Origin: Alteraurantiacibacter buctensis
GTDB lineage: Bacteria; Pseudomonadota; Alphaproteobacteria; Sphingomonadales; Sphingomonadaceae
Direction of reading: 5' to 3'
Assembly (NCBI RefSeq): GCF_009827655.1
Contig: NZ_WTYV01000003.1
Coordinates: 62,001 to 126,000 of the forward strand
DNA: 64,000 bases
Under the pieces are notes generated by a model. The model was given only the letters and a program-made list of their open reading frames with translations, did not search any database and was not told the DNA's origin. Both the position numbers and the translations under genes were made by a program. Within the stretch, counting starts at the first letter, position 1. Each line of letters starts with the position of its first letter. Positions 18,426 to 62,466 of the stretch are shown here, piece after piece.

Positions 18426-18499
18426 AACCCGGCTTGGGCAGGCCCGTGTTGGCCTGGCCTTTGGCCAGTCCTGCCCGCGCCAGCCCGCCCAAGCGGGTT
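18426..18499 (+). promoter_or_regulatory. Structured leader element, copy 1
   Basis: AACCCGGCTTGGGC (18426-18439) pairs with GCCCAAGCGGGTT (18487-18499), 13 pairs with one bulged G. It encloses the hairpin CTGGCC-TTT-GGCCAG (18454-18468). CGTGTTG before the hairpin and TGCCCGC after it are shared with the copies at 20777 and 62400, while stem bases differ in a compensating way. It precedes the DUF2493 gene by about 100 nt and could be an undescribed cis-regulatory RNA or a member of the radC RNA class. Confidence 0.6.
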
Positions 18500-18545
18500 C
18501 CCCTGACGGTGCGGGTCCCGCCTCAAGCTGACCCTGACGGGCTCT

Positions 18546-18578
18546 CGCTGGCGCAGCCCAATGCTGCAAGCGTCAGCG
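18546..18578 (+). promoter_or_regulatory. Nested double hairpin near the DUF2493 gene RBS
   Basis: CGCTG (18546-18550) pairs with CAGCG (18574-18578). Inside it GCAGC (18553-18557) pairs with GCTGC (18563-18567). AGGAGG and ATG 18604 follow. Confidence 0.45.
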
Positions 18579-18603
18579 TCACACCAGTCAGGAGGATAGA
18601 CCC

Positions 18604-19557
18604 ATGCACACCACTTTTGTCGACCAGCTCGCCGGGCTCGATCTCGCCGGGTTCTCGATCGGACCCGCGCCCTTGGCGCAGACCGACTTCCCGACCTCGG
18701 AGGAGGTCAACCAGACGCTATCCGCTGTCTGGTCCGACCTGTTTGCGATGGTATCGGGGACCGCGCTCGAAGCCGATGGAGAGGACCTGGGCTGGGCCTT
18801 CGTCAATCTGTTCCACCGGTCTGCGCAGCGCAAATCCACTGCGCTCGACCGGGCGACCGATGAGGTTCGCGCACTCATCGCCACCGCCGATGGCTCGGAA
18901 GTCCACACCCACGATCTCGAGACCCAGATCGAGCGAGCGCAATGCGCCGAGAGCGCCATGCTGGCGCTCGAAGAGATGCGCGAGGTTGCCGCCAGTCTCT
19001 ACCTCAACGAGTTCGGATCCTCGTGGAAGCCGGTGTCGAGTTCGCGCTTCAACCACGGGGCCATGCTGACCTCCGCGCTGGTCGAAGGCCGCGACTTCCT
19101 GCGCGCGCGTTCCGAGGCGAGGCATCGGGCCGCCATGCCCGAAGGCACGCCGGTCGTCTTCGCCGGTGGGCGCACCCGCCAGGCAAGCGATGCCGAGGCG
19201 GTGACCTTTGCCAACAACGTCTGGGCCACCCTCGACAAGGTCCACGACCGGGTTCCCGACATGGTCCTCATCCACGGCGGCGACACCAAGGGGGTCGACC
19301 GGCTCGCGGCCAGCTGGGCCGAGCGGCGCGGGATCGCGCAGGTAACCTTCTCGCTCGATATGCGCCTTGGTGCCCGGGCCGGGTTCAAGCGCAACGAGCG
19401 CATGCTCTCGGCGGATCCGCGCTACGTCGTCGCCTTTCCTGGTAACGGCGTTCTTGAACGCCTGGTGATCGAGGCCAAGGCCCGGCGGATCACCGTGGTC
19501 GATCGCCGTGGCCCGCTCGGTACCTGCCCGAAAAGCACACCGGCCAGCACCTCCTAA
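18604..19557 (+). CDS. DUF2493 (YspA-like SLOG) protein
   Basis: This 317-residue protein has an N-terminal helical region of about 170 residues and a C-terminal SLOG/YspA domain (about 180-300): TPVVFAGGRTRQASDAEAV, VLIHGGDTKGVDRLAASWAE, the GAxAGFKRNERML helix and YVVAFPGNG. SLOG domains bind nucleotide-derived ligands and occur in defence and signalling systems; DUF2493 proteins are frequent in sphingomonad integrative elements with unknown function. AGGAGG lies 8 bp upstream of the ATG. Its long structured leader is shared with both ssb genes, which implies common regulation. Confidence 0.85.
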   Translation: MHTTFVDQLAGLDLAGFSIGPAPLAQTDFPTSEEVNQTLSAVWSDLFAMVSGTALEADGEDLGWAFVNLFHRSAQRKSTALDRATDEVRALIATADGSEVHTHDLETQIERAQCAESAMLALEEMREVAASLYLNEFGSSWKPVSSSRFNHGAMLTSALVEGRDFLRARSEARHRAAMPEGTPVVFAGGRTRQASDAEAVTFANNVWATLDKVHDRVPDMVLIHGGDTKGVDRLAASWAERRGIAQVTFSLDMRLGARAGFKRNERMLSADPRYVVAFPGNGVLERLVIEAKARRITVVDRRGPLGTCPKSTPASTS

Positions 19558-19574
19558 GGCCGCCAAGGCCTTCG

Positions 19575-19598
19575 CGCCAGCGCCCGCGGGCGCTGGCG
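19575..19598. repeat. 24-nt perfect palindrome
   Basis: CGCCAGCGCCCG at 19575-19586 is followed directly by its reverse complement at 19587-19598. It begins 17 bp after the DUF2493 stop. It may be a terminator-like hairpin (there is only TT after it) or a protein-binding palindrome before the DUF6878 gene. Confidence 0.6.
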
Positions 19599-19633
19599 TT
19601 ACCGCGGAAGAGAGGAGGCATGCGCAGGGTTTT

Positions 19634-19662
19634 GCGGTGCCGGTGAAGGCCATCGGGACCGC
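19634..19662 (+). promoter_or_regulatory. Nested double-hairpin leader of the DUF6878 gene
   Basis: GCGGT (19634-19638) pairs with ACCGC (19658-19662). Inside it CGGTG (19641-19645) pairs with CATCG (19651-19655), with one G-U pair. AAGGAGG and ATG 19682 follow. Confidence 0.4.
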
Positions 19663-19681
19663 CAGGCCTAAGGAGGATACG

Positions 19682-20167
19682 ATGAACGATTTGACCACGA
19701 TGATGGCGGAATTTGCGAGCCATCTCGCGACGCGGCAGATCCGCGTCGCCGACCGCATCGGGCAGCTGGAAGAAGTGCTCATTCCGCAGCTCAGGGCTGG
19801 CGGGATCGCCGCGGTCGAGGTCACTTTCGACGGCGCGGGAGACAGCGGCGCGGTCGAAGACGTGCTGTGTCTGGATGCCGCCGGGGCGACGATCACCTGT
19901 CCAAGCGTGATGCTGGAACTTCCCCCAGCCCAAGCGCGGGCAGGCAATGGTGGAGATGAGGGGTTTGGCGATGATGGCCGAACGCCGCAGGCACTCGATG
20001 CAGCGCTTGAGCAGCTGACCTATCTTGCGCTCGAACGGCATCATCCCGGGTGGGAGAACAACGACGGTGCTTACGGACAGCTTGTGATCGACGTCGCGGC
20101 GGGCACCTTTGCGCTCGATTGCAGCCTGCGCTTCATCGCCACCGACGATCATTCGACCGCGCTCTAG
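19682..20167 (+). CDS. DUF6878-family protein
   Basis: This 161-residue protein belongs to a small family seen mainly in alphaproteobacterial plasmids and integrative elements. Visible features are an N-terminal helix (MMAEFASHLATRQIRVADRIGQLEEVL), the strand VEVTFDGAGDSGAVEDV and the family-typical HPGWENNDGAYGQLVIDVAAGTFALDC near the C-terminus. No catalytic motif is known. The start at 19682 has AAGGAGGATAC upstream; earlier in-frame starts from 19508 fall within the preceding gene and palindrome. The DUF6915 gene follows after 11 bp, so the two are probably co-transcribed. Confidence 0.85.
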   Translation: MNDLTTMMAEFASHLATRQIRVADRIGQLEEVLIPQLRAGGIAAVEVTFDGAGDSGAVEDVLCLDAAGATITCPSVMLELPPAQARAGNGGDEGFGDDGRTPQALDAALEQLTYLALERHHPGWENNDGAYGQLVIDVAAGTFALDCSLRFIATDDHSTAL

Positions 20168-20178
20168 GAGACCAGCTC

Positions 20179-20616
20179 ATGGCTCATTGCTATTATCACG
20201 CGCTCTCCTCGGTCCGCAAATGGGGCGGGGTGGTCGACGATTATCTCCCGCTCCACCAGTGGTTCGACCAGTCGAAAGCCATTCTTGCCGACCCGCGCCA
20301 CCGGGCCTTGCGTCACCATGCCGAGGGGATCTTCATGCTCGAGACGCTGTTCGGGGCGACAATCGTCAATGCCGATGGCCGCACTGTTCCGGTGCGCCTC
20401 GTCGGCGAACAGCATGTGCGCGAGGACCTTGGTGTCATTCCCTCGTTTGCCGACTGGGCGCGCCTCATCTCCCCGCAGGCATGGATGCTGCGTGGGCATC
20501 CGCTCGACGAGGCCGAAGTGGTGACGGTGGACATGGCGCAGGCGAGCGATGGCGCTGCGTTCAAGGCCATGCCCGTGTCTGGGGCCGAGGTTCGATCGGT
20601 CACCACGCCAATCTGA
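20179..20616 (+). CDS. DUF6915-family protein
   Basis: This 145-residue protein of unknown function has the family core HCYYHALSSVRKWGG, YLPLHQWFDQSKAILADPRHRALRHHAEGIF, VRLVGEQHVREDLGVIPSFADWARLI and QAWMLRG. The histidines in HRALRHHAEG and GEQHVRED could bind metal, but no enzymatic activity is established. The C-terminal 35 residues are variable. GGAGACC lies upstream of ATG 20179. It is in the backbone block before ssb. Confidence 0.85.
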   Translation: MAHCYYHALSSVRKWGGVVDDYLPLHQWFDQSKAILADPRHRALRHHAEGIFMLETLFGATIVNADGRTVPVRLVGEQHVREDLGVIPSFADWARLISPQAWMLRGHPLDEAEVVTVDMAQASDGAAFKAMPVSGAEVRSVTTPI

Positions 20617-20776
20617 CGAGGCCGATCTGACAGGGCACCTGCGGAGCGTGGCTGGGGGACGAGAACAGCTTGTCCAACAGGACCGAGAACGAGGCTGGCT
20701 AACCCCGCTCAGGGCATTCAGCTCCACCCGGCTTCGATGCAAACCTGTCCCTGAAACACCCCGCGTCGAGACGCGC

Positions 20777-20848
20777 AACCCGGATCGGGTTCGGCCGTGT
20801 TGCCGGGCTGTGCCCGGCTGCCCGCACCACCCGTACCAGATCCGGGTT
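20777..20848 (+). promoter_or_regulatory. Structured leader element, copy 2
   Basis: AACCCGGATC (20777-20786) pairs perfectly with GATCCGGGTT (20839-20848). It encloses the hairpin GCCGGGC-TGT-GCCCGGC (20802-20818). Flanking words CGGCCGTGTT and TGCCCGCACCACCCGT are identical or nearly so in the copy upstream of the second ssb, while both stems differ by paired changes. It ends 85 nt before ssb. Confidence 0.65.
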
Positions 20849-20891
20849 CCCCTGCGGTGCGCTTCGCCACTGGGCGCTTCTGCTCGGGTTT

Positions 20892-20915
20892 GCAGCCGGG
20901 ATGGACCCGCGCTGC
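20892..20915 (+). promoter_or_regulatory. Nested hairpin near the ssb copy 1 RBS
   Basis: GCAGC (20892-20896) pairs with GCTGC (20911-20915). CGGG (20897-20900) pairs with CCCG (20906-20909). CAGGAGAAG and ATG 20934 follow. Confidence 0.45.
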
Positions 20916-20933
20916 CCGATCAGGAGAAGTACC

Positions 20934-21335
20934 ATGACCAATCTCGTAATCCTCGTTGGCCGCATCGCTCGCGACCCCGAAACCCGCACCACGCAAGGTG
21001 GCACTGAGATCACCCAGGTCTCGGTGGTGACCGACCGCCCGGCCCGCAAGGACGGCAAGACCTACAAGGACGAGAACGGCTACACCGCCAAGGACAGCGA
21101 GTTCCACCGTGTCACCTGCTTCAACGGCCTCGGCCAGAACGTCGCCAAGTATTGCACCAAGGGCCAGCTGGTGACTGTCGAAGGCCGCATCCATTACACC
21201 CAGTGGGAAGACCAGGACGGTACCAAGCGCTACGGCTGCGAGATCATCGCCGACAAGGTCGACTTCCTCTCGAAGGGCCGGGCCAATGGCAGTGACACCG
21301 CCAACGAAGGCGCTCCCGACATCGACGAGGACTGA
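20934..21335 (+). CDS. ssb: Single-stranded DNA-binding protein, copy 1
   Basis: This is a 133-residue SSB with a single OB fold. It starts MTNLVILVGRIARDPETRTT, carries the strand VTVEGRIHYTQWED, and ends with the acidic tail and APDIDED. The tail is short and ends DIDED rather than the canonical DDDIPF tip, so its protein-partner contacts may differ from the chromosomal SSB. AGGAGAAG lies upstream of the ATG. It is closely similar to the second ssb at 62575; both follow the same kind of structured leader. It should coat single-stranded element DNA during transfer or replication. Confidence 0.95.
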   Translation: MTNLVILVGRIARDPETRTTQGGTEITQVSVVTDRPARKDGKTYKDENGYTAKDSEFHRVTCFNGLGQNVAKYCTKGQLVTVEGRIHYTQWEDQDGTKRYGCEIIADKVDFLSKGRANGSDTANEGAPDIDED

Positions 21336-21355
21336 CCCTCGCAAGCATTGAACAA

Positions 21356-21389
21356 GGCCCCGGTGGCGCGAGCCATCGGGGCCTTTTTC
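21356..21389 (+). terminator. Intrinsic terminator of ssb copy 1
   Basis: GGCCCCG (21356-21362) pairs with CGGGGCC (21377-21383), extended inward by GTGGC/GCCAT around a GCGA loop and followed by five T residues. It separates ssb from the convergent DUF6437 gene. Confidence 0.85.
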
Positions 21390-21447
21390 TGTGCTCACCG
21401 GCGATGGCGGCGCGAGGGGCATCGAACCCCCCGCGCCGCCTGATGGC

Positions 21448-21684
21448 TCATCTTGGCGATGGGGAAATGCGCTTCATCGTCTCCTCGATACCGAGCTCGC
21501 GTACCCTCAGCATCAGCCGCTTGAGCGCTGCCGGTTCGAGCGTCTCTGCGCCGCATTCGAGCATGATCGCACCGAGTTCAGCGGCCACGCTTTCGCGTAA
21601 ACGCGCTTCCTCGACGGCAAGCTGTTCACGTTGCTCCTGCAATCTGCGCAAGGCATCGCGCGCATTCACTTTGGACCTGGCCAT
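21448..21684 (-). CDS. DUF6437-family small protein
   Basis: This 78-residue, charged and helical protein starts MARSKVNARDALRRLQEQREQ and has a central ELGAIMLECGAETLEPAALKRLM segment. The family is small, of unknown function, and associated with alphaproteobacterial mobile elements; some members are described as conjugation-linked helical proteins. The start at 21684 has GAAAGG upstream; the longer in-frame start at 21825 lacks one. The gene is convergent with ssb. A coiled-coil tendency in residues 10-45 suggests oligomerisation. Confidence 0.7.
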   Translation of the reverse strand: MARSKVNARDALRRLQEQREQLAVEEARLRESVAAELGAIMLECGAETLEPAALKRLMLRVRELGIEETMKRISPSPR

Positions 21685-21848
21685 GGGACAAACCTTTCGT
21701 TGGCCGTTGGTCCCCTCCAGCCCTGACAGTGCCACTCGCTCGCTCCTGTAGGAAACTGGTTTCTGGGGCGAGAGCAGCTCGATGCCGCGAGGGTTGGAGA
21801 GAGGTTTCTCTCGCAGACTTGCCAAGTGTGACGGGGGCTTTGGGGCCG

Positions 21849-21980
21849 CGTCAAGGACGACGGGGCCCCACCATTTTGCCTCCCCTTCGCTGCGCTACGG
21901 TCCAGCAAAATCGTTGCCCCCATCGCCGCTGCGCGGCCGCGCCATGGCGCGGTCCCTGACCCAGCCCGTCACCCCCATCC
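21849..21980 (+). repeat. Conserved non-coding element E, copy 1
   Basis: This roughly 130-bp stretch runs from CGTCAAGGACG to CCCCCATCCG and aligns along its length with 63112-63245. It contains ATTTTGC (21873-21879), which can pair with GCAAAAT (21905-21911) around an invariant CCTCCCCTTCGCTGCGCTA core. A 16-nt palindrome, CCGCGCCATGGCGCGG, lies at 21937-21952. In the other copy the palindrome is replaced by a different hairpin at the same place. It lies upstream of the small DEGDY gene in both copies. Confidence 0.7.
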
Positions 21981-21988
21981 GTGCAGAT

Positions 21989-22014
21989 CCTGATGCGACG
22001 CATCGACCATCAGG
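21989..22014 (+). promoter_or_regulatory. RBS-masking hairpin of the 22025 gene
   Basis: CCTGA (21989-21993) pairs with TCAGG (22010-22014), the latter being part of the ribosome binding site CAGGAGG. Inside it TGC (21994-21996) pairs with GCA (22000-22002). Confidence 0.45.
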
Positions 22015-22024
22015 AGGAACGATC

Positions 22025-22258
22025 ATGCATATCTCACACCACACCGTCCGGGGCATCTCGGCAGACCAGGCAGCCTTCGTGGCCGCGCTCGACCAGGCCC
22101 ACGCCCGGTCCTACCACAGTTACTTCACCCAGTACGTTCTGACCGACGATGAGCGGGGCTACATCGCCATCGACGAGGGTGACTACGGGGCGCTTCCCCC
22201 GGCCTATCTCGACCGGGTCATCGACACCGTGCCGGGCAGGCTCAGCGACGAATTCTGA
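22025..22258 (+). CDS. Small DEGDY-motif protein, paralogue of 63286
   Basis: This 77-residue protein is not assigned to a named family. It shares with the protein at 63286 the C-terminal half: GY(I/F)A(I/L)DEGDY(G/N)ALP, then a leucine-rich helix with V(I/V)(D/H)T, and an identical SDEF end. The N-terminal halves differ more. CAGGAGG lies eight bases upstream of ATG. It is preceded by conserved element E and followed by a terminator, and the same block occurs after the second ssb, so it is a stable backbone component. The acidic character suggests a DNA-mimic or protein-binding role, which is speculation. Confidence 0.8.
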   Translation: MHISHHTVRGISADQAAFVAALDQAHARSYHSYFTQYVLTDDERGYIAIDEGDYGALPPAYLDRVIDTVPGRLSDEF

Positions 22259-22269
22259 CACCGGCCACG

Positions 22270-22305
22270 AGGAGGAAGTCCATCAGGGCTTCCTCCTTTT
22301 GTTTT
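22270..22305 (+). terminator. Intrinsic terminator after the 22025 gene
   Basis: AGGAGGAAG (22270-22278) pairs with CTTCCTCCT (22289-22297), followed by TTTGTTTTG. It lies 11 bp after the stop. Confidence 0.85.
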
Positions 22306-22360
22306 GCTCGAGGACCTTTGCGAACCCCGTAGTTGTTCGGGATAGCGCAGTCCATGGGTC

Positions 22361-22555
22361 TCACTCGCCGCCTTCTGGCGTGTCGAATGCCTCGAGCCGT
22401 TCGGGCATGCCGAGCACCTTGATCGCGGCGAATGTGATTGCCTCGGCACGGGTCGGGAAAGCCTCGGCCGAGCTAATAGACACACCATTGGAATAGGTGA
22501 CCTTTGTCTGGAACCCATTGCCCTTGGGGTTTGCGCTCAAAGTCACCTGCGTCAT
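22361..22555 (-). CDS. Small hypothetical protein
   Basis: This 64-residue ORF has GGGAG nine bases before the ATG and codon use like its neighbours. The sequence TQVTLSANPKGNGFQTKVTY, AFPTRAEAITFAAIKVL suggests a small alternating strand/helix fold resembling short DUF proteins found in proteobacterial plasmids. The family is not recognised. It converges with the 22025 gene across the terminator and is divergent from the integrase. Confidence 0.6.
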   Translation of the reverse strand: MTQVTLSANPKGNGFQTKVTYSNGVSISSAEAFPTRAEAITFAAIKVLGMPERLEAFDTPEGGE

Positions 22556-22743
22556 GGTATGGACTCCCTCGCGTCATTGCCGGGACCATGATCATAGGTC
22601 GCTGCGGTCGACTTTCACACCGTCATCATCAAATTGCCGCTGCGGTCAAAGGTACCCGCTTCTTGCTTGGCAGCATTCCCCATATCCTCCTGATACGAAC
22701 CGGATCTGGCAGCCGGATTTCGACCGGCAAAGGGGGTACAATT

Positions 22744-22769
22744 GGCACACCGTACGCAGCCTAAGCTGC
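22744..22769. repeat. 17-bp direct repeat, copy 1, with adjoining hairpin (candidate attachment or integrase control site)
   Basis: GGCACACCGTACGCAGC (22744-22760) is identical at 63924-63940. In both places GCAGC is followed after 3-4 bases by GCTGC, making a small hairpin. It lies 14 bp before the integrase start. It could be an attachment-site core, a recombinase arm site, or an operator. Confidence 0.55.
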
Positions 22770-22773
22770 ATTT

Positions 22774-24018
22774 ATGGAGCAAAACCTAGTAAAAACAGAT
22801 AGTTCGAAATTTCTAACCCACCGGCAATCTGTGGGTGGGCAAGGCACAGCCGTCACCCACAAACGCCAATCCAATAAGCTGAAACTGACCGGTCATGTGG
22901 CCCGTCGAGCCTCACTTCCGCTCGGGATTACATGGGATAATGAACTGCCCGGCTTCGGACTGCGCAAGCGCAAGTCCGGACACCTTAGCTGGATATTGAA
23001 GTACAGGCCCCGAGGCGTGCAGAGGATGGTGACGCTGGGACGCGCGGGAGTGGCGGCAGGTGCGCTGGGCGCTCCCGCCGCGCGCGCTGCCGCGCGCAGA
23101 TTGCTCATCAGGGCTACGCTTGCCGACCTGCCGTCTGCGCCCGAGCAGAAAAAGGTCCCGCTCTTTGTCGACTTCGCCGAGGAATTCTGGACCGACTATT
23201 CGCCGCACTGGAAACCGTCGACCAGGACGAGCTCCCGCTCGCGCATCGATCAGCTGCTGATACCGCAATTCGGCGAACTTCCGGTCGACATGATCGCACG
23301 ATCCGACATCAACCGCTGGCGCGACTCCATGACAAAGAAGGAAGGGAGCTTCAATCGCACCATCCCGATCATGTCGGTCATGATGCAGTATGCGGAGAAG
23401 CTCGGGTATCGCGCCAAGAGCACCAACCCTTGTCGCGGTGTTTCCCGCTTCAAGCGCGAGCTCCCGGAGCGCTACCTTTCCGCCGACGAATACCGCCGGC
23501 TCGGCAGCGTGTTAGCCAGTCACGAGTTTGCGAACCCGTTCGTGACCCCGGCGCTCCTCATGCTCATTTACACGGGCGCACGTGCCTCTGAGATCACAAC
23601 ACTGCGCTGGCGCTACGTCCAGATTCCTCGACTTGCCTTGCCCGACAGCAAGACCGGCCCGAAGACCATCTATCTCAACCGGCAAGCGATTGACGTTCTG
23701 AATGGCCTCGACCGCCGTGCCGACGACCAGCTTGTCTTTCCGGCGTTGCATCGGGAGAATCCAATCGATCTGGGACAGCACTGGATCAAAATCAGGCGCA
23801 AGGCCGCTCTACCCGATGTCCGGCTTCATGATCTTCGCCACAGCTTTGCCTCGGTGGCCATTGCCAAGGGCATTCCGCTCGCGACCATCGGCAAGCTCTT
23901 GGGGCATGCGTTGCCCGAGACGACCGCGCGCTATGCGCACCTAGCCGACGACATCATCTTGGAGAGTGCCGAGCGGATCTGTTCGAGCCTCGCCGGCGCA
24001 CTGGGCATCGCGGCGTGA
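22774..24018 (+). CDS. Tyrosine recombinase/integrase A
   Basis: This is a 414-residue site-specific recombinase with a complete catalytic set: R270 (TGARASE), K293 (DSKTG), H352 and R355 (LHDLRHSF), H378 (LLGH) and Y387 (ARYAHL). An N-terminal Arm/DUF4102-like domain (residues about 45-120, ITWDNELPGFGLRKRKSG) precedes the SAM-like core-binding domain. Its stop overlaps the start of a second recombinase by 4 bp, so the two are translated together. The start at 22774 lacks a clear ribosome binding site. It is likely responsible, with its partner, for integrating the element; the 17-bp repeat just upstream is a candidate site. Confidence 0.93.
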   Translation: MEQNLVKTDSSKFLTHRQSVGGQGTAVTHKRQSNKLKLTGHVARRASLPLGITWDNELPGFGLRKRKSGHLSWILKYRPRGVQRMVTLGRAGVAAGALGAPAARAAARRLLIRATLADLPSAPEQKKVPLFVDFAEEFWTDYSPHWKPSTRTSSRSRIDQLLIPQFGELPVDMIARSDINRWRDSMTKKEGSFNRTIPIMSVMMQYAEKLGYRAKSTNPCRGVSRFKRELPERYLSADEYRRLGSVLASHEFANPFVTPALLMLIYTGARASEITTLRWRYVQIPRLALPDSKTGPKTIYLNRQAIDVLNGLDRRADDQLVFPALHRENPIDLGQHWIKIRRKAALPDVRLHDLRHSFASVAIAKGIPLATIGKLLGHALPETTARYAHLADDIILESAERICSSLAGALGIAA

Positions 24019-25196
24019 CGGGATACGACCTCAAGCATATCCTGGCCGAGGAACTCGCGCGCGTTGTTCCGGGTGAGGCGGGGAAGCGGCGAACGAGATT
24101 TGACTATGTGCTTCCGGGCTTTGGCGAGCGCATCCACAGCTCAGGACGCAAGAGCTACGTCCTCCAGCGGACCATCGGCGGCAAGCAGCGGTTGATAACG
24201 ATCGGCGATGCCGCCATTGTTACCGAGCGCCTCGCGAAGGATATTGCCCGCCGTCTGATCCTCCGGATCGAGGTCGGGCAGAACCCAGCAGACAAGAAGA
24301 AGCGCGGCAGGAAGACGCCGACCTATGCGGCGTTCCTTCAGTCCTACTGGGATGTGGCGGCACCGACCTGGAAGAAGTCGACGCGCGAGATCCACGACAT
24401 CTACCGCCGCACGCACCTCGATCATGCGTTCGCGAGCAAGTTCATCGACGAGATCGATCATGCCGATGCGGTGCGCTGGCACGCGGAGGTAACGCGCTCG
24501 GCAGGGCCGGGCGCAGCAAACCGCGCCATGGAAATTCTGAAAGCCATGTTCGCCAAGGCCGAGGCCTGGGGCTATATTCCTGAGCACTCAAACCCCTTTC
24601 GAGGCGTGAAGAAGAACAGGGGGCGCAAGATCGAACGGTTTCTGAGCGACGCCGAAATGGCGCGGCTCGGGAAAGCCCTTGCCGACCGGCGCGCTGACCA
24701 GCCCGTCGAAGCGGCGCTAGTCACACTGCTCGCGTTGACAGGATGCCGACGCGGCGAAATCCTCAACCTCACCTGGGGCGAGGTTCAGGGGAGGAAGCTC
24801 AAACTGACCGACTCCAAGACCGGCCCGCGTATCGTCTGGCTTGGCGAGGAGGCGAGGGCGGTGCTCGATGGATTGCCGCGCGGGAAGAGGGATGAGCGGG
24901 TGTTTCCATTCAAGGGGCAGTCGGTTTCAGCGATTGACTGGTTCTGGCGCAAGCTCCGACGTGATGCCGGTCTGGATGACGTCAGGCTCCACGATCTGAG
25001 GCACAACTATGCCAGCCTGGCAGCGCGATCATCCGAGACTTTGCCGATGATTGGAAGCCTCCTTGGCCACAGGCAGGTTTCGACAACAGCTCGGTATGCA
25101 CACTTGGATGATACCTCCCTCCTTGAGGCTGCGACCGAAATTGGTGATGAAATCGCGTGCAGACTGGCGCTATCCGAAGCCCCCTGGCGTCAGTGA
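24015..25196 (+). CDS. Tyrosine recombinase/integrase B
   Basis: This is a 393-residue recombinase, distinct from A. The catalytic residues are R246 (GCRRGE), K268 (DSKTG), H326 and R329 (LHDLRHNY), H352 (LLGH) and Y361 (ARYAHL). An Arm-type N-terminal domain (DYVLPGFGERIHSSGRKSYVLQ) is present. The GTG start at 24015 overlaps the stop of recombinase A. Pairs of overlapping tyrosine recombinases are known from other elements where the two proteins act together or on different arms. No excisionase was recognised nearby. Confidence 0.92.
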   Translation: MTGYDLKHILAEELARVVPGEAGKRRTRFDYVLPGFGERIHSSGRKSYVLQRTIGGKQRLITIGDAAIVTERLAKDIARRLILRIEVGQNPADKKKRGRKTPTYAAFLQSYWDVAAPTWKKSTREIHDIYRRTHLDHAFASKFIDEIDHADAVRWHAEVTRSAGPGAANRAMEILKAMFAKAEAWGYIPEHSNPFRGVKKNRGRKIERFLSDAEMARLGKALADRRADQPVEAALVTLLALTGCRRGEILNLTWGEVQGRKLKLTDSKTGPRIVWLGEEARAVLDGLPRGKRDERVFPFKGQSVSAIDWFWRKLRRDAGLDDVRLHDLRHNYASLAARSSETLPMIGSLLGHRQVSTTARYAHLDDTSLLEAATEIGDEIACRLALSEAPWRQ

Positions 25197-25413
25197 GATT
25201 TCGCGCTCCAGAGATTCGAATTCAATGTCGTGGGGTCTAATTCGCTTGGCAGCTTTGCGCCCCAAATTAAGGCCATCGAATTCCATGCGACGATCACCTC
25301 GAAGCGGACATTAGAATGCATCGGTGGCGATCTGTCGGCAAAGCTTCAGCAATCATCAGGCATAGCCCATGTCAGTCAGCCCCCGGAACTGACCAAATAG
25401 AAAAAGAGACCGC

Positions 25414-25443
25414 TTGACGAAATTACATTGCAGCCCATATTAT
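25414..25443 (+). promoter_or_regulatory. Promoter of ohr copy 1
   Basis: TTGACG (25414-25419) and TATTAT (25438-25443) are spaced 18 bp apart. The spacer holds AAATTACATTGC, which resembles one half of the OhrR operator seen upstream of the second ohr (AAATTATATATTGC), with a degenerate right half. Confidence 0.6.
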
Positions 25444-25896: not shown

Positions 25897-25907
25897 CGGA
25901 ATCGCCC

Positions 25908-33033: not shown

Positions 33034-33152
33034 ACAGCATGGATAGTCTCAAGTCCGCAAATTGTCAAGTGTCGCGCGACACATTGCGGGAAGGTTGTTC
33101 ATCCTGCCAGCGTCTGATCCGCCCCGGTCAATTCCGACCGTGGAGAACGACA

Positions 33153-33785
33153 ATGGGATATTCGAGATATGATCCGGCCATGCAGCGCCGACCCGCCTGG
33201 AACGCTGGAAAGAATGTAGGGACCAAGCGTCCGCTCACCCAGAAGCAAATCTGGGCGATCCGCTTCCACCTCGATCGCGAGGGCCGGTTGCGGGACAAAG
33301 CGCTGTTCGACCTTGCCATCGACAGCAAGCTGCGGGGTTGCGATCTGGTCAAGATCAAGATCGGTGACGTAGTTGCGGGGGCCGACAGCCGTACCCGCGC
33401 AATCGTCATTCAGCAGAAAACCAATCGACCCGTTCAGTTCGAAATAACTGCCGATGTTCGCTCGACGCTCTTATCTTGGCTGGAGCGTCGGGGTGGATCA
33501 ACAAGCGATTATCTATTCCCGAGCCGCGTTGATCCGGCGGGGCACATGAGTACGCGGCAATATGCCCGCCTGGTTGACGAGTGGGTGACGGCAATTGGCC
33601 TGAGAAAAGCAGAATACGGCACGCATTCGCTGCGACGGACGAAGGCCGCCATGATCTATCGAGCCACAGGCAACATCCGTGCGATCCAGATCCTGCTCGG
33701 CCACACGAAGATCGAGAACACAGTGCGTTATCTCGGCGTCGATGTCGAAGACGCCTTATTGCTGGCGGAACGAACGGAGATCTGA
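33153..33785 (+). CDS. Small tyrosine recombinase
   Basis: This 210-residue integrase-like protein consists mostly of the catalytic domain: R in SKLRGCDLVKIKIGDV, K in QQKTNRPVQFEI, HSLRRTKAA (HxxR), LLGHTKIENTVRYLGV with the nucleophile tyrosine. It lacks a long N-terminal arm domain, like the short phage-type integrases often found scattered in alphaproteobacterial genomes. The start at 33153 has GGAG seven bases upstream; longer frames from 33039 lack one. It is divergent from higBA. Whether it moves any DNA is unknown; a 9-bp inverted repeat follows its stop. Confidence 0.85.
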   Translation: MGYSRYDPAMQRRPAWNAGKNVGTKRPLTQKQIWAIRFHLDREGRLRDKALFDLAIDSKLRGCDLVKIKIGDVVAGADSRTRAIVIQQKTNRPVQFEITADVRSTLLSWLERRGGSTSDYLFPSRVDPAGHMSTRQYARLVDEWVTAIGLRKAEYGTHSLRRTKAAMIYRATGNIRAIQILLGHTKIENTVRYLGVDVEDALLLAERTEI

Positions 33786-56123: not shown

Positions 56124-56548
56124 CGGTCTCAGCCAATATTCAAATAGTTGACCATGATGAAAGCATGCTCCCGCACCGCCATTAAGGACCATTCGAAGGC
56201 TCGCTTGGCCTCGCTATCCATCACCTGCAAGTTGTCGCGACCTAGCTTGCACTTGATCGCAGGAAGCGCTCGAAGCCAAACCGCATCTAAGATCAGCGTA
56301 TCTGTGTTTGGCGTCGATCTACCTCAGTTGACTAAGCAGCGGTAGGCATGGCGGTCGCATGAAGACCGAACGGCTTCGGCGACACTACGGGCCGGATGTC
56401 GAGCAATTGCAACGGGTGCTTTACCGCCAGAAAGCCATCGTTCGATCAATCAGAACTTGTTCGTCAGGTGGACGGCTCGAAGTGGGTGGAACGCGGAATA
56501 GCAGGTAATCCGATTTCAACCATCGAAAGCTGCCGCTAACGTGGCGGG
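56124..56548. other. 425-bp region without genes
   Basis: Only short frames without ribosome binding sites. A 49-codon frame from 56359 (MKTERLRRHYGPDVEQLQRVLY) may be a gene remnant. Nothing else was recognised. Confidence 0.35.
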
Positions 56549-57260
56549 ATGATCATCGCTCATCTCGACTTTATGATCCGCGCCGGGGCCATCTGCACGA
56601 TGCTTTTGCTAGCATGGCTCCTGCTTCGCCAGCACCGTCACGTTCGTATGCCCGCCATCCTGTTCGCACCGATGGCGCTGTGCACATCCGGTTTTGTCGC
56701 GGGCAATACGCCGATGTCTTCGTTAATACCGGCCGGCTCAATCGGTGCCGTCGCTCATGCCGCAAGCGACTTCACCGTCGCCTTCCTGTGGTGGTTCTGC
56801 CTCTCATGTTTCGATCGCCAGTTCGGGCTGCGCGGCGGGGTGCTGGGCGTCGGCTTGGTTTGGACGTTCCTTGCCGCTCTGGATCGGGGGCTGTTCGGCC
56901 AAGCTTTCGCCAGCAAAGGGCTATCGATATTTCTCGTGGCTCTGGGTTTCGCCATAGTCGTGCATCTTGTCTCGCGACTTCTTGCCGAGCGCCGGGGCGA
57001 CTTGATCCAGCAACGGCATGACGCCAGCTCCGTGGTAGTAATCCTCCTCAGCGGGATGCTGTTCGTCGATCTTGCGGCAGACGCCATGTTTGGTTTCGCG
57101 TGGCGCCCGCTTGCCTTTTCGATGGCTCAGAACGCAATGGTGCTTACATTCGGCTTATGGTTGGCGGGCCGGCTTCTGGTCGTGCGTCCGGCGGTGTTGA
57201 CCTTCGACGTAGCGGAAACCGGTCCGTCATTCGATCAACCAGTGCCGCAGCTGAGTAGCC
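56549..57260 (+). pseudogene. Membrane sensor part of an AraC-like regulator, truncated
   Basis: The frame encodes seven hydrophobic segments (AICTMLLLAWLLLRQHRHV through AMVLTFGLWLAGRLLVVRPA), similar in layout to the 7TM N-terminal domain of membrane-bound AraC-type regulators, with LVSRLLAERRGDLIQQRHDASSVVVI as the usual cytoplasmic loop. The C-terminal HTH domain expected after FDVAETGPSFDQPVPQ is missing; from about 57265 the DNA instead encodes part of a CPBP protease in another frame. The family call is tentative. Confidence 0.5.
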
Positions 57261-57264
57261 GCCG

Positions 57265-57656
57265 CACTCTATTGCGCCTTCTTTGTCGTCATAGCTCTCA
57301 TCTTCCCTGGAGACCCGGCTAGCGGCGAAGATATCGCGTTTCAGCTTACCTTGCCGGGTTTGGAGGAGGAGCTCTTCCATCGTGGCATCCTGCTGTTCGC
57401 GCTGAATCAGGCTTTCACCGGAAGGAGACGGTTCCTCGGGTCGATTGGGGATGGGGCGCGGTCCTGTCGTGCTTCCTGTTCGGATTGGCACATGCCTGTG
57501 GCTTCTCGGACGACAGCTTTGCCTTCGATCCCATCACGATGGCGCTGACGGCAATCCCAGCCTTTATCGCGGTCTGGCTGCGTTTGCGCACCGGAAGCCT
57601 GCTCCTGCCAGTTCTGCTTCACAATTTCGGCAATTCGCTCTCGTTCATCGTGTGAA
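57265..57656 (+). pseudogene. CPBP-family intramembrane protease fragment, frameshifted
   Basis: Translation gives YCAFFVVIALIFPGDPASGE, then DIAFQLTLPGLEEELFHRGILLFALNQAF with the catalytic EExxxR-like EEELFHRG. After a frameshift near 57440 it continues WGAVLSCFLFGLAHACGF and LLPVLLHNFGNSLSFIV, including the second and third CPBP histidine motifs. The N-terminal membrane segments are missing. It is a clear broken gene. Confidence 0.7.
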
Positions 57657-57837
57657 GATGTCTTCCCGGAATGACCGCTTCCGGGATCAGCATTCTGCCC
57701 GTGAAATGACCGCATTTGGGCGCAAAGCGGCTGTATAACATCAATCCGCAGCATTTGGCTCTCAATGCTGCCCGCACCGCTTTATCGGTGACTGGCGCCA
57801 CCTAGGCATGGACCTTCCCGGCACCGTCCCGAACCGG

Positions 57838-58707
57838 TCATGCACGAGAACTCTCGGCCAGCCTTTCGCTGTCCGCAGGGCTCGCAAACAGCACCGCCAC
57901 CTTCTGCCGCCAGCCAGGCACGACCAGAACATCGTGCCATAAGGCGCCCAGCTCGTGCAGGCCGATCCGCAGGGGATTGTTGCTCTCTAAACGGTGCACC
58001 AAACCGTAATCGAGCCTTCGGCCCTCAGGCTCGGCCCGATACGTCCCGAACAGCCGGTCGAAAACGATCACCACGCCGCCGAAATTGCAATCGAGATAGG
58101 CCTCCTCCCGGCTGTGATGCACACGGTGGTGCGATGGCGTGTTGAGCACCCATTCCAGCGGCCCGAGCCGTCCGACCAGTTCGGTATGGAGCAGGTACTG
58201 GTAGAGGAGGTTGATGCCCAGCAGCCCCATGACCATCGCTGGTGGAAAGCCAATCAGCACCAGCGGAGCAAAGAACAGCCAGCTTCCCATCAACGGTCCG
58301 AACCAGCCGAGCCGGTAAGCACTGGGCAAAACGAACTCATTGGCGGAGTGATGAACTGCGTGATTGGCCCAGAACCAGCGGATCATATGACTGCAACGAT
58401 GGAACCAGTAATAGGCGAGTTCGACGCCCAGGAAGCACGCCACCCATATGCGCCAGTCATCCATCGGCATCCGCCATGGCGCCAGCCACGAAAGTGCGAA
58501 CAGAACCGTGCCTAACACCAGAGCGCCGATCTGCTTGGGCACAATACCCAGCACCATCACGCCCAGGCTGGCGGCGGCGGAGCCGAGGTCATATCCCCGT
58601 CCCAAGCCCCAACGCCGCCAGATCAATTCAGCCAGGGCCAACGCCAGGGCCAGCGCCAGTATGAACGGGCGGTATTCGTTGGCTCCGCTCATGAAGTCGG
58701 GAGACAT
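57838..58707 (-). CDS. Sterol desaturase/fatty-acid hydroxylase superfamily protein
   Basis: This is a 289-residue integral membrane di-iron enzyme. The histidine cluster is complete: WFHRCSH, HAVHHS and PSHHRVHHS with additional HTELVGR. Hydrophobic segments lie at residues about 10-30, 45-65, 75-95 and 150-185. The ATG at 58707 overlaps the stop of the EF-hand gene upstream on the same strand, so they form a unit. The substrate (carotenoid, sterol-like or lipid) cannot be told. In sphingomonads related enzymes modify carotenoids or ceramide-type lipids. Confidence 0.88.
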   Translation of the reverse strand: MSPDFMSGANEYRPFILALALALALAELIWRRWGLGRGYDLGSAAASLGVMVLGIVPKQIGALVLGTVLFALSWLAPWRMPMDDWRIWVACFLGVELAYYWFHRCSHMIRWFWANHAVHHSANEFVLPSAYRLGWFGPLMGSWLFFAPLVLIGFPPAMVMGLLGINLLYQYLLHTELVGRLGPLEWVLNTPSHHRVHHSREEAYLDCNFGGVVIVFDRLFGTYRAEPEGRRLDYGLVHRLESNNPLRIGLHELGALWHDVLVVPGWRQKVAVLFASPADSERLAESSRA

Positions 58708-59129
58708 CACCGCTTCTTCGCCATATCTTCGAGCGTGGCGCGCGCGACCTGCAACTCGGAGGTAGTTACGACATTATCCTTGTTGGTGTCGGCCATGTCG
58801 AAGGCGGTGGTCGGACCATTGGCGAACTCGCTGCGGGTGACCACACCATTGCCGTCGGCATCCATGGCGGCCGTGTGCTGTCTGATCATTTCCGCGATAC
58901 GCGCCATGCGCGGCAGATCGCTGTCGCTCAGTACACCGTTGTCGTCGCGGTCGAGCCGATCGAATTGCTGGGCACGATAGGTGAGAAACTCGGCCTTCGA
59001 GACATTGCCGTCGCGGTTGCTGTCCGCCTTGGCCATCTGCTCCATCATACGCGAGCCATCCTGTGCTTGCGCGATCGGTGCGACGGCGACGGCCAACGTT
59101 ACGAGTGTCAAAGTAAACAAGGTCTTCAT
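58707..59129 (-). CDS. Exported EF-hand calcium-binding protein
   Basis: This is a 140-residue protein with a signal peptide (MKTLFTLTLVTLAVAVAPIAQAQ) and four EF-hand loops: DSNRDGNVSKAEF, DRDDNGVLSDSDL, DADGNGVVTRSEF and DTNKDNVVTTSEL. The Ca2+-coordinating positions 1, 3, 5 and 12 are mostly acidic or Asn; the third and fourth loops deviate least. AAAAGG lies upstream of the start; a longer frame to 59282 lacks a signal. It is coupled to the hydroxylase gene. Confidence 0.92.
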   Translation of the reverse strand: MKTLFTLTLVTLAVAVAPIAQAQDGSRMMEQMAKADSNRDGNVSKAEFLTYRAQQFDRLDRDDNGVLSDSDLPRMARIAEMIRQHTAAMDADGNGVVTRSEFANGPTTAFDMADTNKDNVVTTSELQVARATLEDMAKKR

Positions 59130-59266
59130 GATTATGCCTTTTCTGGGAAAATCGCTTCTGGCCGGGTGCATGACCCCGGTCGGCTCCGGGGTTGGGGGAG
59201 GGGCTGACGGGACAAAACCGTCCGGGGTCATGCGTTCGGGTGTCGGGTTGGTGCAATCGCCCGCGA

Positions 59267-59875
59267 TCAACGCGTCGGACAAGTGACCGCAGCGCCGCTG
59301 GCGTCGGTGCAGCTGTAGCTGTGGACCGGCTGGCCGGTCGCAGGGTCGATGGTCGTGGTACCGTTATAGGTGATGCCCGAGGCATTGCCGGTGATCGTCG
59401 TGTCGCTGCCGCCGGCCCAGCTGCCGTCGGCATTGCGGGTGTAATTGCTGCTGGTCGAGGCACTGCCCTGCTCGCCATTGGCAGAGGTCGAGCCGCTGCG
59501 GGTAAAGCCCTCGCCACGGGTGCCGCTGGTGCTCGACTGGGTGGTTGCAGTCGCACCGTTCGCCGCCTGCACGGCCGCGCCGCGCTGCGAGGAATAGGCG
59601 CCGGTCGTCTCGTCATAGGTCGCAGTGCCGGCGCGAACGGCGCGGCCGCCTGCAGCAGTGCGGCGTGCGCCGCCGCTCGCCACGGTCGTGGAGCCATCGG
59701 CATTCTCGACCTTGCCGCGACCGCGGACCACGGCGCCACCATTGGCATTTGCGGCAGCGGTTACGGTACCGTTCTGGCCGCGCGCCTTGATGCGGGCCTG
59801 CTGCGCATCGGCGGTGCCCGCCACCATCATCGCGGCCATGGCGGCAACGGCGGTCATCATCTTGAAGGTCTTCAT
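59267..59875 (-). CDS. Secreted Ala/Thr/Gly-rich low-complexity protein
   Basis: This is a 202-residue protein with a signal peptide (MKTFKMMTAVAAMAAMMVAGTADAQ). The mature part is biased to Ala, Gly, Thr, Ser and Asn with loosely repeated motifs (GNGxVTA, NADGS, TRSGSTSANGEQGSAS) and ends with a cysteine pair in YSCTDASGAAVTCP. CAGGAG lies upstream. It has no named family; similar secreted proteins are common in sphingomonads. It is divergent from the two-component system with about 195 bp between them. Confidence 0.75.
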   Translation of the reverse strand: MKTFKMMTAVAAMAAMMVAGTADAQQARIKARGQNGTVTAAANANGGAVVRGRGKVENADGSTTVASGGARRTAAGGRAVRAGTATYDETTGAYSSQRGAAVQAANGATATTQSSTSGTRGEGFTRSGSTSANGEQGSASTSSNYTRNADGSWAGGSDTTITGNASGITYNGTTTIDPATGQPVHSYSCTDASGAAVTCPTR

Positions 59876-60069
59876 CTCGGGTACTCCTGCTTGTGTTCGG
59901 GCAGGACCGCCATGGCCCTGCTGACAGGGGTCTTTCACCACACAGGTGTATCGAGGAAATGACGCAAAACCGGCGAGATGCGACCGCCTGTGACGGCGCG
60001 GGCTGCTTGAAACATCTCGTAACATCCTCGCCTCGCCACGCCCGAAAAGACGTGGCAGAAGATGCCGCG

Positions 60070-60777
60070 ATGAGCACGAAACCGCCCCGACTTCTCGTCG
60101 TCGATGACGATCCCGAACTTCGCGGCCTGTTGCAGCGCTTTCTGAGCGAGCACGGGTTCAAGGTTCGCACTGCCTCCAGTGGATCGGAGATGGATCGCGA
60201 ATTGAGACGCGAACCGGCCGACCTGCTTGTGCTCGACCTGATGATGCCGGGCGAGGACGGGCTGGCGATCACTCGCCGTCTGCGCGCCGATGGCGAAAGC
60301 ATCCCGATCCTGATGCTGACAGCGCGCGGCGATCCGGTCGACCGGGTGCTGGGGCTGGAGATGGGCTGTGACGACTATCTGGCAAAGCCCTTCCTGCCGC
60401 GTGAACTCGTCGCTCGTGCCACCGCGATCCTCCGCCGGATGACACCATCCGGTGCGTCGGTCGTCGAGGAGGCGATTGCCTTCGGCCCCTTCAGTCTCGA
60501 CGTGACCGGGCATCGATTGAGCCGAGACGGCGCCGAGATCGCGCTGTCCTCGCGCGAATTTGCCTTGCTGAGTACCCTGGCCCAAGCGCAGGGGCGCACT
60601 TTGTCGCGCGCAACGCTGGTCGAGCGGGCGATCGGCCGCGATGCCGAGGTGACCGACCGCGCCATCGACGTTGCCATTGCGCGGCTGCGCAAGGCCATCG
60701 GCGATGACCCGGCCAACCCGCAGTGGGTGCGGACCATCTGGGGTGCCGGCTACATGCTGGCCACGGGCAGCGAGTGA
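60070..60777 (+). CDS. OmpR-family response regulator
   Basis: This is a 235-residue response regulator. The receiver domain has DDDPELR, the phosphorylated aspartate in LLVLDLMMPGEDG (about residue 57), the T in MLTARG and the K in YLAKPFLP. The winged-helix output domain ends GDDPANPQWVRTIWGAGYML. The start at 60070 is chosen by alignment (MSTKPPRLLVVDDD). Its stop overlaps the kinase start by one base. Nearby EF-hand, hydroxylase and secreted-protein genes may be its targets. Confidence 0.95.
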   Translation: MSTKPPRLLVVDDDPELRGLLQRFLSEHGFKVRTASSGSEMDRELRREPADLLVLDLMMPGEDGLAITRRLRADGESIPILMLTARGDPVDRVLGLEMGCDDYLAKPFLPRELVARATAILRRMTPSGASVVEEAIAFGPFSLDVTGHRLSRDGAEIALSSREFALLSTLAQAQGRTLSRATLVERAIGRDAEVTDRAIDVAIARLRKAIGDDPANPQWVRTIWGAGYMLATGSE

Positions 60778-62069
60778 TGTTCCGCTCGCTGTTCGGGCGT
60801 AATTTCGCGCTGCTGGTGGTACTGGTCCTCATGGCCCAGCTGGTTGCGGGCGTCGCGGTTTCCGTCTTCGTGATCCGCCCGCAACTGGACCGCGCCACCT
60901 CGATCGTCGCCGACATGGTCGACAACCTCTCGGTGACGCTCGATGCCGTACCGCCCGAACAGCGGGCCGCCGTGATCGAGCATTATGCGCAGCAACGTTC
61001 GGCGATCATCCTGCCCGACGGGGCCGAGCCGCGCGGCGAGAACAAGCGCCCGCGCATGCTGGAGCGCGCCTACCTGGGCATGCTCGCCAAGAGCCTGCGC
61101 GGACAGGAGTCGATTACCTGGCGGATGGACGAGAACAGCCGCTTGTGGCTCCACCTGCGCCTCGGCGGCGAACAATACTGGATGGCGCTGGAAAGCCCGC
61201 GCCTGTGGACGCCCTTCACCACGCTGAGCCTCGTCATGGCGATCACGCTGGTGGCTGCGACGCTGGCGGGCTTCCTCGTGCAACGGCGCCTGTCCGCCCC
61301 GCTCGAACGCGTGGCCCGCGCCGCGGACGCCTTCGATCCGCAGCGTCCGCATGCGGCTTTGCTGGAGGACGGGGCGACCGAGATCGCCCAGCTGTCCGCC
61401 TCGTTCAACCGCATGGGCGAGCGACTGGGCGCGGTCGAGCGCGAGCGCGAGATCATGCTCGCCGGGATCAGCCACGATCTGCGAACGCCGCTGGCCAAGC
61501 TGAGACTCTCGCTGGCGATGATGAAGGGCGAGGATGCCGACCTGCTGGAAGGCTGCGACCGGCAGGTCGATACGATCGATCTCATGCTCGGCCAGTTCTT
61601 CGACTTCGCGCGGGGATTCAAGGACGAGCCGGTGGCCGACTGCACACTCGCACCTGTACTTGCCGAGGCGGTGGCTCGGGCGGATGGCAAGGACGTCGTC
61701 ACGGTGGACTGTCCAGCCGAACTTGCCATCTCCATTCGCGCCGAGGCGCTGACGCGCGGTCTCAGCAATCTCATCCGCAATGCGCTGGTCCACGGGACAC
61801 CGCCGATCAAAGTGTTGGCGAGCCGTGATGATGCAGGCGTCGAGATCAGGGTCACCGATGCCGGACCGGGCTTTCCCGCCAGCGCGGAGGCGCGACTCCT
61901 CAATCCCTTCGTGCGCGGCAACGAGGCGCGCAGCACAGCCGGATCGGGGCTTGGCCTCGCAATCGCACAGCGTGCCGTGGCGGCGAACGCCGGATTACTT
62001 CACTTCGAACGCGACGGAGGTTTTAGTGCTGTGATGACAATCGATCGCTCGAACGGTGACCACCGATGA
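60777..62069 (+). CDS. EnvZ-like sensor histidine kinase
   Basis: This is a 430-residue inner-membrane kinase: TM1 (LLVVLVLMAQLVAGVAVSVFVI), a periplasmic domain of about 120 residues, TM2 (LSLVMAITLVAATLAGFLV), HAMP, HisKA with GISHDLRTPLAKLRL (phosphoacceptor H) and HATPase with NLIRNALVHG, DAGPGFP and GSGLGLAIAQ. It partners the response regulator. The periplasmic domain has no named fold visible. Confidence 0.95.
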   Translation: MFRSLFGRNFALLVVLVLMAQLVAGVAVSVFVIRPQLDRATSIVADMVDNLSVTLDAVPPEQRAAVIEHYAQQRSAIILPDGAEPRGENKRPRMLERAYLGMLAKSLRGQESITWRMDENSRLWLHLRLGGEQYWMALESPRLWTPFTTLSLVMAITLVAATLAGFLVQRRLSAPLERVARAADAFDPQRPHAALLEDGATEIAQLSASFNRMGERLGAVEREREIMLAGISHDLRTPLAKLRLSLAMMKGEDADLLEGCDRQVDTIDLMLGQFFDFARGFKDEPVADCTLAPVLAEAVARADGKDVVTVDCPAELAISIRAEALTRGLSNLIRNALVHGTPPIKVLASRDDAGVEIRVTDAGPGFPASAEARLLNPFVRGNEARSTAGSGLGLAIAQRAVAANAGLLHFERDGGFSAVMTIDRSNGDHR

Positions 62070-62307
62070 AGAACGTCCGCTTGCAGGAGCTTTGAATTTG
62101 GCCGCTTCGGTCCGCAATTGCGGCGCAATGCCGACGCAAGCCGAGCCAGAATTGGACCGGGGCAAGCGCTTTGCATTGTGGTCGTTCCTGCACATGTTCG
62201 GGTCCGCCCCCGATCTCGATGTGGCGTTCGAAAGCGAAGAAGACCGGGAGGCGGCGCGCAACTTCATGGATCTCCTGGCGGCATCGGAGGGCGATGGGGA
62301 AAGCTGA
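62056..62307 (+). CDS. Small hypothetical protein coupled to the kinase
   Basis: This is an 83-residue frame starting with GTG inside the kinase stop region. Composition and codon use fit a coding sequence (acidic C-terminus FESEEDREAARNFMDLLAASEGDGE, hydrophobic helix RFALWSFLHMFGSAPDL). No family was recognised. It may instead be the end of a decayed gene, since the overlap with the kinase is only 14 bp. Confidence 0.45.
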   Translation: MTTDEERPLAGALNLAASVRNCGAMPTQAEPELDRGKRFALWSFLHMFGSAPDLDVAFESEEDREAARNFMDLLAASEGDGES

Positions 62308-62399
62308 TTGCGGCAGGTTCCTGGCACCTTCAGACCCGCACCCGATACCCATCCGGCTTTCTTCGCGAACAGTCCTGAACCAGGTCAGCTGAGGACGGC

Positions 62400-62466
62400 A
62401 ACCCGTTCCTTTCCGGCCGTGTTGGCAGCTGCGCTGCCTGCCCGCACCACCCGTCATGAACAGGTT
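62400..62466 (+). promoter_or_regulatory. Structured leader element, copy 3
   Basis: AACCCGTTC (62400-62408) pairs with GAACAGGTT (62458-62466), 8 of 9 positions. It encloses GGCAGC-TGC-GCTGCC (62424-62438). Shared flanks are CGGCCGTGTT before and TGCCCGCACCACCCGT after the hairpin. It lies about 108 nt before ssb copy 2. Confidence 0.6.

Follow-up and report, generated by a model that had tools for sequence, protein, structure and literature searches.

A covarying structured element upstream of ssb and DUF2493 genes in Sphingomonadaceae, probably a hairpin element of single-stranded DNA

To judge from the title of a 1997 paper by Masai and Arai, Frpo is reportedly both a promoter and a primer source. 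Frpo2 of the F plasmid lies before ssbF and is described as required for early expression in recipients (PMC9849209), and Samuel et al. reported leading-region SSB and anti-defence genes in one orientation, together with thousands of Frpo-homologous or Frpo-like candidates (PMC11541004). The early promoters of phage N4 are template-strand hairpins with a loop of 3 nucleotides (nt), in which the 5' G, the 3' A, and the closing C:G pair matter, and the hairpin is kept and serves as promoter while SSB melts the other strand (PMC4496689). Here, we describe a structured element that occurs three times (copies E1, E2, and E3) in a 64,000-nt stretch of contig NZ_WTYV01000003.1 from Alteraurantiacibacter buctensis (this whole stretch is called the window, and coordinates are positions within it), ahead of one DUF2493 gene and two ssb genes. 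On balance, and from sequence analysis, we lean towards a hairpin element of single-stranded DNA (ssDNA) on the transferred strand (T-strand), probably an Frpo-like early promoter, that is, a DNA element and not primarily an RNA.

Like Frpo/ssi of F and ColIb-P9, the element stands before ssb and establishment genes in what would be the leading region, with a long hairpin on the template (T) strand. Unlike them, its stem is GC-rich and carries an invariant internal-loop core, which was not found between 50 and 68 kb of F (pattern test only). On the gene strand, a long-range outer stem surrounds GC-AACCC ... GGGTT-TCCC, followed by a variable, optional hairpin and then GGTG, and the core (CCGTGTT, a small hairpin, TGCCCGCRCC) sits within the AACCC/GGGTT stem, at the tip of a long imperfect stem. 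Pairing of the outer arms goes on beyond GGTG in many copies, as a long imperfect inverted repeat toward the ribosome-binding site, and the stem base lies just 5' of the ribosome-binding site of ssb or DUF2493. Core variants have CCGAGTT for CCGTGTT, or T or C in place of R, and many distinct complementary apical hairpins were found among the copies. A further GTGT/GCAC helix within the core is unproven; its second pair varies as T-A, T-G, T-T, A-A, and A-T across copies. Two copies on Aurantiacibacter atlanticus plasmids (L247:3057-3184 and L248:7772-7899) share a comparable insert of some 53 nt in the hairpin tip (55 nt in place of the model's 2).

A sequence-only reading of the window had proposed three closed-stem structures with paired base changes, and all three were borne out by the sequence (Table 1). 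The closing stem of E1 is AACCC-g-GCTTGGGC/GCCCAAGC-GGGTT with one bulged G, that of E2 is a perfect helix of 10 base pairs (bp; AACCCGGATC/GATCCGGGTT), and that of E3 is AACC-C-GTTC/GAAC-A-GGTT with one A.C mismatch; the paired changes named for the inner hairpins were correct, and the words CCGTGTT, TGCCCGC, and TTCCC with a downstream GGTG are present. The pattern CCGTGTTGN{6,30}TGCCCGC had 3 matches in the window versus 0 in 100 shuffles, and E1, E2, and E3 were the sole matches of model R1 there up to E = 5. Pfam confirmed the downstream genes (DUF2493 and two SSB), and the element is indeed repeated 5' of mobile-element backbone genes. A fourth copy in the same genome, on another contig (G000:C10:14158-14200; L290, minus strand), precedes another DUF2493-type gene.

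The element is real, widespread, and structured. Its core pattern was present in 64 of the 249 genomes from the window's family (Sphingomonadaceae), while the reversed-pattern control matched in none; in a second, overlapping draw of 396 genomes from the order, 73 had a match (control 0), and the one match beyond the family (G701) was chance-like. The nearest named plasmid matches were from Erythrobacteraceae and Sphingomonadaceae, and plasmids from Rhodobacterales and Hyphomicrobiales, as well as predicted phage contigs, also carry the core. Named plasmids matching R1 include those of Aurantiacibacter atlanticus, Sphingobium baderi, Sphingobium sp. RSMS, Sulfitobacter pontiacus, and Martelella (pMM259). 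Searching with a rhodobacterial leader brought up 82 plasmid records, and a scan of the species-genome collection for the T variant found at least 119 stretches, which among 80 titles were Alphaproteobacteria by name save a Cryobacterium and a Chloroflexota record. A pattern scan of IMG/VR found at least 120 stretches, nearly all of them chance matches, to judge from the lack of a complementary hairpin (4 of 120 had a 4-bp arm, and 3 of these were true phage copies). The ssb leader of Pukyongiella p2 had no R1 match; there (L252:2680-3011), the distal part of the leader is kept and the element is absent, apparently swapped for other sequence.

The first set of loci comprised 106 places (96 distinct), including 3 phage copies and 5 loci later dropped as chance (L140, L141, L142, L154, and L220); G000:C16:233912, G178:C41, and G196:C37 were left out. 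When the hairpin plus 10 nt was taken as a string, 61 of the 70 distinct ones, counting those of the dropped loci, had at least 4 terminal complementary pairs. A script found the stem borders in 80 of 87 copies (7 were excluded), and 42 of these 80 entered the model alignment, in which 82.6% of cells pair compared to 71.4% in shuffles, both sides change in 13 of 21 pairs, and the covariation score is 0.232 versus at most 0.097 for slid partners. The covariation also held against a home-made null that takes the tree into account (300 runs of independent re-evolution, with a neighbour-joining tree and Fitch counts): total G was 324.7, whereas the null averaged 110.8 and peaked at 197.3. Of the 12 pairs tested, 8 reach at most 4 of 300, and pairs 7-81, 9-80, 14-74, and 36-46 do not. 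RNAalifold on a MAFFT alignment recovered a 7-pair core alone and missed the register-shifting closing stem.

The copies are associated with particular genes. A downstream open reading frame (ORF) was assigned in 89 of 92 distinct copies, namely 67 SSB, 18 DUF2493, 2 phage, and 2 placed as SSB by a better start search. The distance from core to start is 105–148 nt for SSB (77 leaders) and 90–128 nt for DUF2493 (20 leaders); the start search left 5 copies unassigned (2 at contig ends, 2 before other genes, and 1 SSB missed by the start pattern). Beyond the window's family, copies lie before ssb (L226), DUF2958 (L229; Pfam E 3.7e-44), and a small ORF (L227).

Three tests of which strand folds were devised after the first data set had been seen, and a set of sixteen further leaders and a rhodobacterial-type set serve as checks on new data. 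The main strand-test set consists of 48 dissimilar leaders, with two leaders carrying a 55-nt insert excluded. An A.C mismatch on the gene strand is a G.T on the template strand. The helix finder treats all mismatches alike, and we counted those flanked by three Watson-Crick pairs on each side: A.C outnumbered G.T by 28 to 4 on the gene strand of 97 leaders and by 27 to 3 in the 48 dissimilar ones (composition expectation 8.0 versus 3.5), the A.C mismatches being spread over 20 of the 48 leaders and the G.T over 3. By raw folding energy, the template strand was more stable in 44–47 of the 48, depending on parameter set and segment. Since the gene strand is C-rich, we redid this comparison with 25 dinucleotide shuffles per strand, and the template strand still had the lower mean z (−2.54 versus −1.57) and was lower in 38 of 48 leaders (p about 1e-7). 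As a control, 27 RNase P loci (first 160 nt of each) had a mean z of −0.18 on the wrong strand versus −1.95, with the wrong strand lower in 3 of 27. In the window, E1 and E3 lean to the template strand; folded as gene-strand RNA, E1 (z −3.27) and E2 (z −2.98) both beat shuffles, E3 alone did not (z −0.85), and as DNA E3 had z −0.81 on the gene strand versus −2.63 on the template strand. Six segments of 200 nt ahead of ssbF of F were folded as well, and the strongest, at the described Frpo2 site (PMC9849209), had z −6.61 on the gene and −7.68 on the template strand, a template-strand lean of small margin.

The third test concerned the apical loops. DNA hairpins with GNA loops are generally regarded as unusually stable. 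The CGCGAAGCG DNA hairpin is listed as extraordinarily stable (PMC10527192). Triloops close 38 of 63 distinct apical hairpins, and on the template strand 28 of these 38 read GNA, 23 with a closing C-G pair, compared to none on the gene strand; shuffling the loop letters gave a mean of 5.3 and a maximum of 14. The element resembles the N4 early promoters in these triloops, which are not in all copies. It differs from them in its far longer composite stem with an invariant core and in the 25 of 63 distinct apical hairpins that are not triloops; N4 also uses a virion RNA polymerase (vRNAP), and none is known for the element, for which none was searched.

The new data repeated most of this preference. 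In 16 new leaders dissimilar to the first 48, A.C mismatches outnumbered G.T by 11 to 2 (p 0.022), GNA triloops were found in 8 of 11 cases on the template strand and in 0 of 11 on the gene strand, and the template z was lower in 14 of 16 (p 0.001). The rhodobacterial-type set had 119 matches, which fell into 90 SSB, 4 DUF2493-like (by start pattern), 16 other (by eye, 14 of them include or overlap an SSB frame), 6 cut, and 3 without an ORF, and comprised 82 distinct leaders, 14 of them dissimilar, with at least 2 chance-like matches (L339 and L418); here, GNA triloops numbered 8 of 25 on the template strand versus 0 of 25 on the gene strand, and the template z was lower in 10 of 14 (p 0.025). 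In 10 distinct phage copies, both strands folded far better than shuffles, and the template raw energy was always lower.

We propose that in the single-stranded state the strand serving as template of the downstream gene would fold into a long imperfect hairpin, whose tip would carry the invariant internal-loop core with a small, stable hairpin of the GNA type and whose base would lie just 5' of the ribosome-binding site. In conjugative plasmids and integrative and conjugative elements, ssb and DUF2493 would lie on the leading side of the origin, where the template strand is expected to be the transferred T-strand, and the hairpin should therefore form as the T-strand enters the recipient. It would then most likely act as an ssDNA promoter, and perhaps also as a priming site, to start early transcription of ssb and other establishment genes, and would be turned off once the second strand is made. 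The leading region, in F and by established knowledge, is the side away from the relaxase. As the origin of transfer was not mapped, we infer the leading side from the side of the relaxase, and leader and relaxase were on the same strand in 35 of 35 plasmids (the leader-bearing records, out of 42, that were also among the 60 relaxase rows listed), with the relaxase 6.0–34.3 kb downstream; the Sulfitobacter plasmid has the same leader/relaxase topology. In the window's genome, genes for a TrwB coupling protein and a TrwC relaxase follow E3 and its ssb on the same strand, just beyond the window end, and a second TrwC relaxase gene is on C17. The neighbourhood in the window (Strawberry-notch helicase, ParB, ArdC, DUF2493, and SSB) matches the S. 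baderi backbone, and this region may be one mobile element.

Several observations weigh against an ssDNA promoter. No canonical −35/−10 pair was found, and sigma70-like scans did no better than shuffles, but the control Frpo2 of F was also missed, so that these scans were without power. E2 on its own has no strand preference. Counted by alignment columns outside the core, the A.C lean is weaker (35 versus 18); the GTGT/GCAC core pairing, if real on the gene strand, uses G.T in 42 of 42 and 19 of 42 copies; and a strand-biased mutation process could also produce an A.C excess. This excess was not repeated in the rhodobacterial-type set (8 versus 8, and 3 versus 2). The 35 plasmids have related backbones and are thus not independent. 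The phage copies occur in predicted tailed-phage contigs with terminase genes, such phages do not conjugate, and the z values of these copies are mixed, with no strand clearly favoured.

The same hairpin could instead be a single-strand initiation (priming) site for complementary-strand synthesis whose position before genes is incidental. The strand, the leading-side location, and the hairpin would fit such a site as well as a promoter, and Frpo itself is described as promoter and primer source; yet the distance to the start codons of two gene families is fixed at 90–148 nt, and a priming site need not be gene-linked, yet three copies occur within 44 kb of the window, and we regard this as unlikely. 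A cis-regulatory RNA leader in the ssb or DUF2493 mRNA, either a protein-binding leader or a riboswitch, would account for the covariation, the gene association, and the position before the ribosome-binding site; the phage copies 59–66 nt before small ORFs with a ribosome-binding-site-like stretch and the missing mismatch asymmetry of the rhodobacterial-type set would suit it too. Such a leader would have to fold on the strand that is disfavoured in all three tests of the window-family set and again in the new-data check, and the RNase P control validates the folding test. In addition, conservation dips directly upstream of the element in E3-type copies, which counts against an mRNA leader because an adjacent leader promoter would lie there, and there was no Rfam match; a leader therefore seems improbable to us. 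A transcript that begins near the start of ssb and crosses the element in antisense would also fold as the template strand does. Around E3, a simple consensus scan of both strands found nothing resembling a promoter or terminator, and 28 GNA triloops versus 4 GNRA tetraloops on the template strand suit stable DNA loops, with N4 as precedent, better than RNA, which makes an antisense RNA very unlikely.

The sequence-only reading had concluded on a functional RNA and named the radC RNA motif as a candidate. Structure and covariation stood, whereas a fold in the mRNA is disfavoured, as the strand tests favour the complementary template strand, and membership in radC found no support. The radC RNA motif is associated with mobile elements. 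It was described from Proteobacteria (RF01754; PMC2864571). The STAXI motif is found near ssb, antirestriction, and integrase genes, and its authors considered ssDNA possible but noted that its TTCG loops point away from DNA (PMC2864571). STAXI consists of tandem pseudoknots, unlike the element. With Rfam gathering thresholds, the whole window had 0 matches. Permissive scans on both strands, covering the element regions and four related loci, returned neither radC nor STAXI, and those of the element regions had only chance-level matches. In 59 family genomes, radC (RF01754) reached its cut-off in none; its 24 weak matches were all away from element places. Among the open-literature titles listed, none gave an account of the element (subscription papers were outside this scope).

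In the literature cited here, the experimentally backed ssDNA promoters are those of F and ColIb-P9, and new ones have been sought by similarity to them and by promoter boxes. If the hairpin is indeed a promoter on the T-strand, it would represent a separate, covarying ssDNA-promoter family in Alphaproteobacteria, and DUF2493 and DUF2958 would be marked as candidate early-entry genes. A further-reaching possibility, which we put forward tentatively and with more doubt than confidence, is a new class of ssDNA gene starts, unrelated to Frpo in sequence and without canonical boxes, with which conjugative elements of Alphaproteobacteria would express ssb, DUF2493, and DUF2958 from the incoming strand; the core in tailed phages would then imply a widespread polymerase, primase, or accessory protein that recognises ssDNA and reads the invariant tip. 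The strand-of-fold tests (A.C versus G.T in helices, shuffle-controlled folding of both strands, and GNA loops) offer a means of separating folded DNA elements from RNA leaders by sequence alone, and further orphan structured motifs in the vicinity of ssb and antirestriction genes could be reclassified with them.

Table 1. Features of the three element copies in the window
Feature	Position	Strand	Details and basis
E1 outermost stem, upstream arm	18376..18397	+	pairs with 18542-18561; strand-symmetric helix search (L002)
E1 element match (closing stem AACCC..GGGTT and core)	18424..18503	+	model R1, 73.5 bits
E1 core, gene-strand reading CCGTGTT-(hairpin 18451-18471)-TGCCCGCGCC	18444..18481	-	putative folded strand is the complement
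E1 outermost stem, downstream arm	18542..18561	+	strand-symmetric helix search
DUF2493 (YspA cpYpsA-related SLOG) gene after E1	18604..19557	+	Pfam PF10686 (YAcAr)
E2 outermost stem, upstream arm (CCCGGCT, GCAAACC)	20727..20745	+	sequence; helix search (L003)
E2 element match	20775..20851	+	model R1, 74.2 bits
E2 core, gene-strand reading CCGTGTT-(20802-20818)-TGCCCGCACC	20795..20828	-	sequence
E2 outermost stem, downstream arm (GGTTTGC, AGCCGGG)	20887..20900	+	sequence; helix search
ssb ORF after E2, as listed	20901..21335	+	Pfam PF00436
E3 outermost stem, upstream arm (TCCGGCTT, GCGAACA)	62352..62371	+	sequence
E3 element match	62398..62470	+	model R1, 72.9 bits
E3 core, gene-strand reading CCGTGTT-(62424-62438)-TGCCCGCACC	62417..62448	-	GCA triloop on the complement
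E3 outermost stem, downstream arm	62522..62548	+	overlaps local hairpin CCGGAGA-TGG-TCTCCGG (62532-62548); sequence
ssb gene after E3	62575..62973	+	Pfam

Homologues of the ssb after E2 begin at the ATG at 20934, which is 105 nt past the core. The local hairpin near E3 has equivalents with changing arms just 5' of the ribosome-binding site in other leaders; as it overlaps the downstream arm of the outer stem, the two pairings are mutually exclusive.

With respect to the phage copies, stem and hairpin sequences also change in step (by eye), and 14 IMG/VR contigs (L018:7062-7126, L034, L076, L291-L297, and L299-L302) have the core at the tip of a long AT-rich stem. The ORFs that follow are 40–100 amino acids long, and 3 of 3 tested had no Pfam match; two queries of an annotated phage collection returned no relative of these copies. 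In L018, genes for the small and large terminase subunits are located downstream.

Three tyrosine recombinase genes follow E2 (22774-24018, 24015-25196, and 33039-33785), with efflux-type genes among them. Finally, a 196-amino-acid protein with matches to sigma-70 region 4 and LuxR-type helix-turn-helix domains is encoded near a relaxase gene (L289:9377-9967) and is a possible partner of an unusual promoter.

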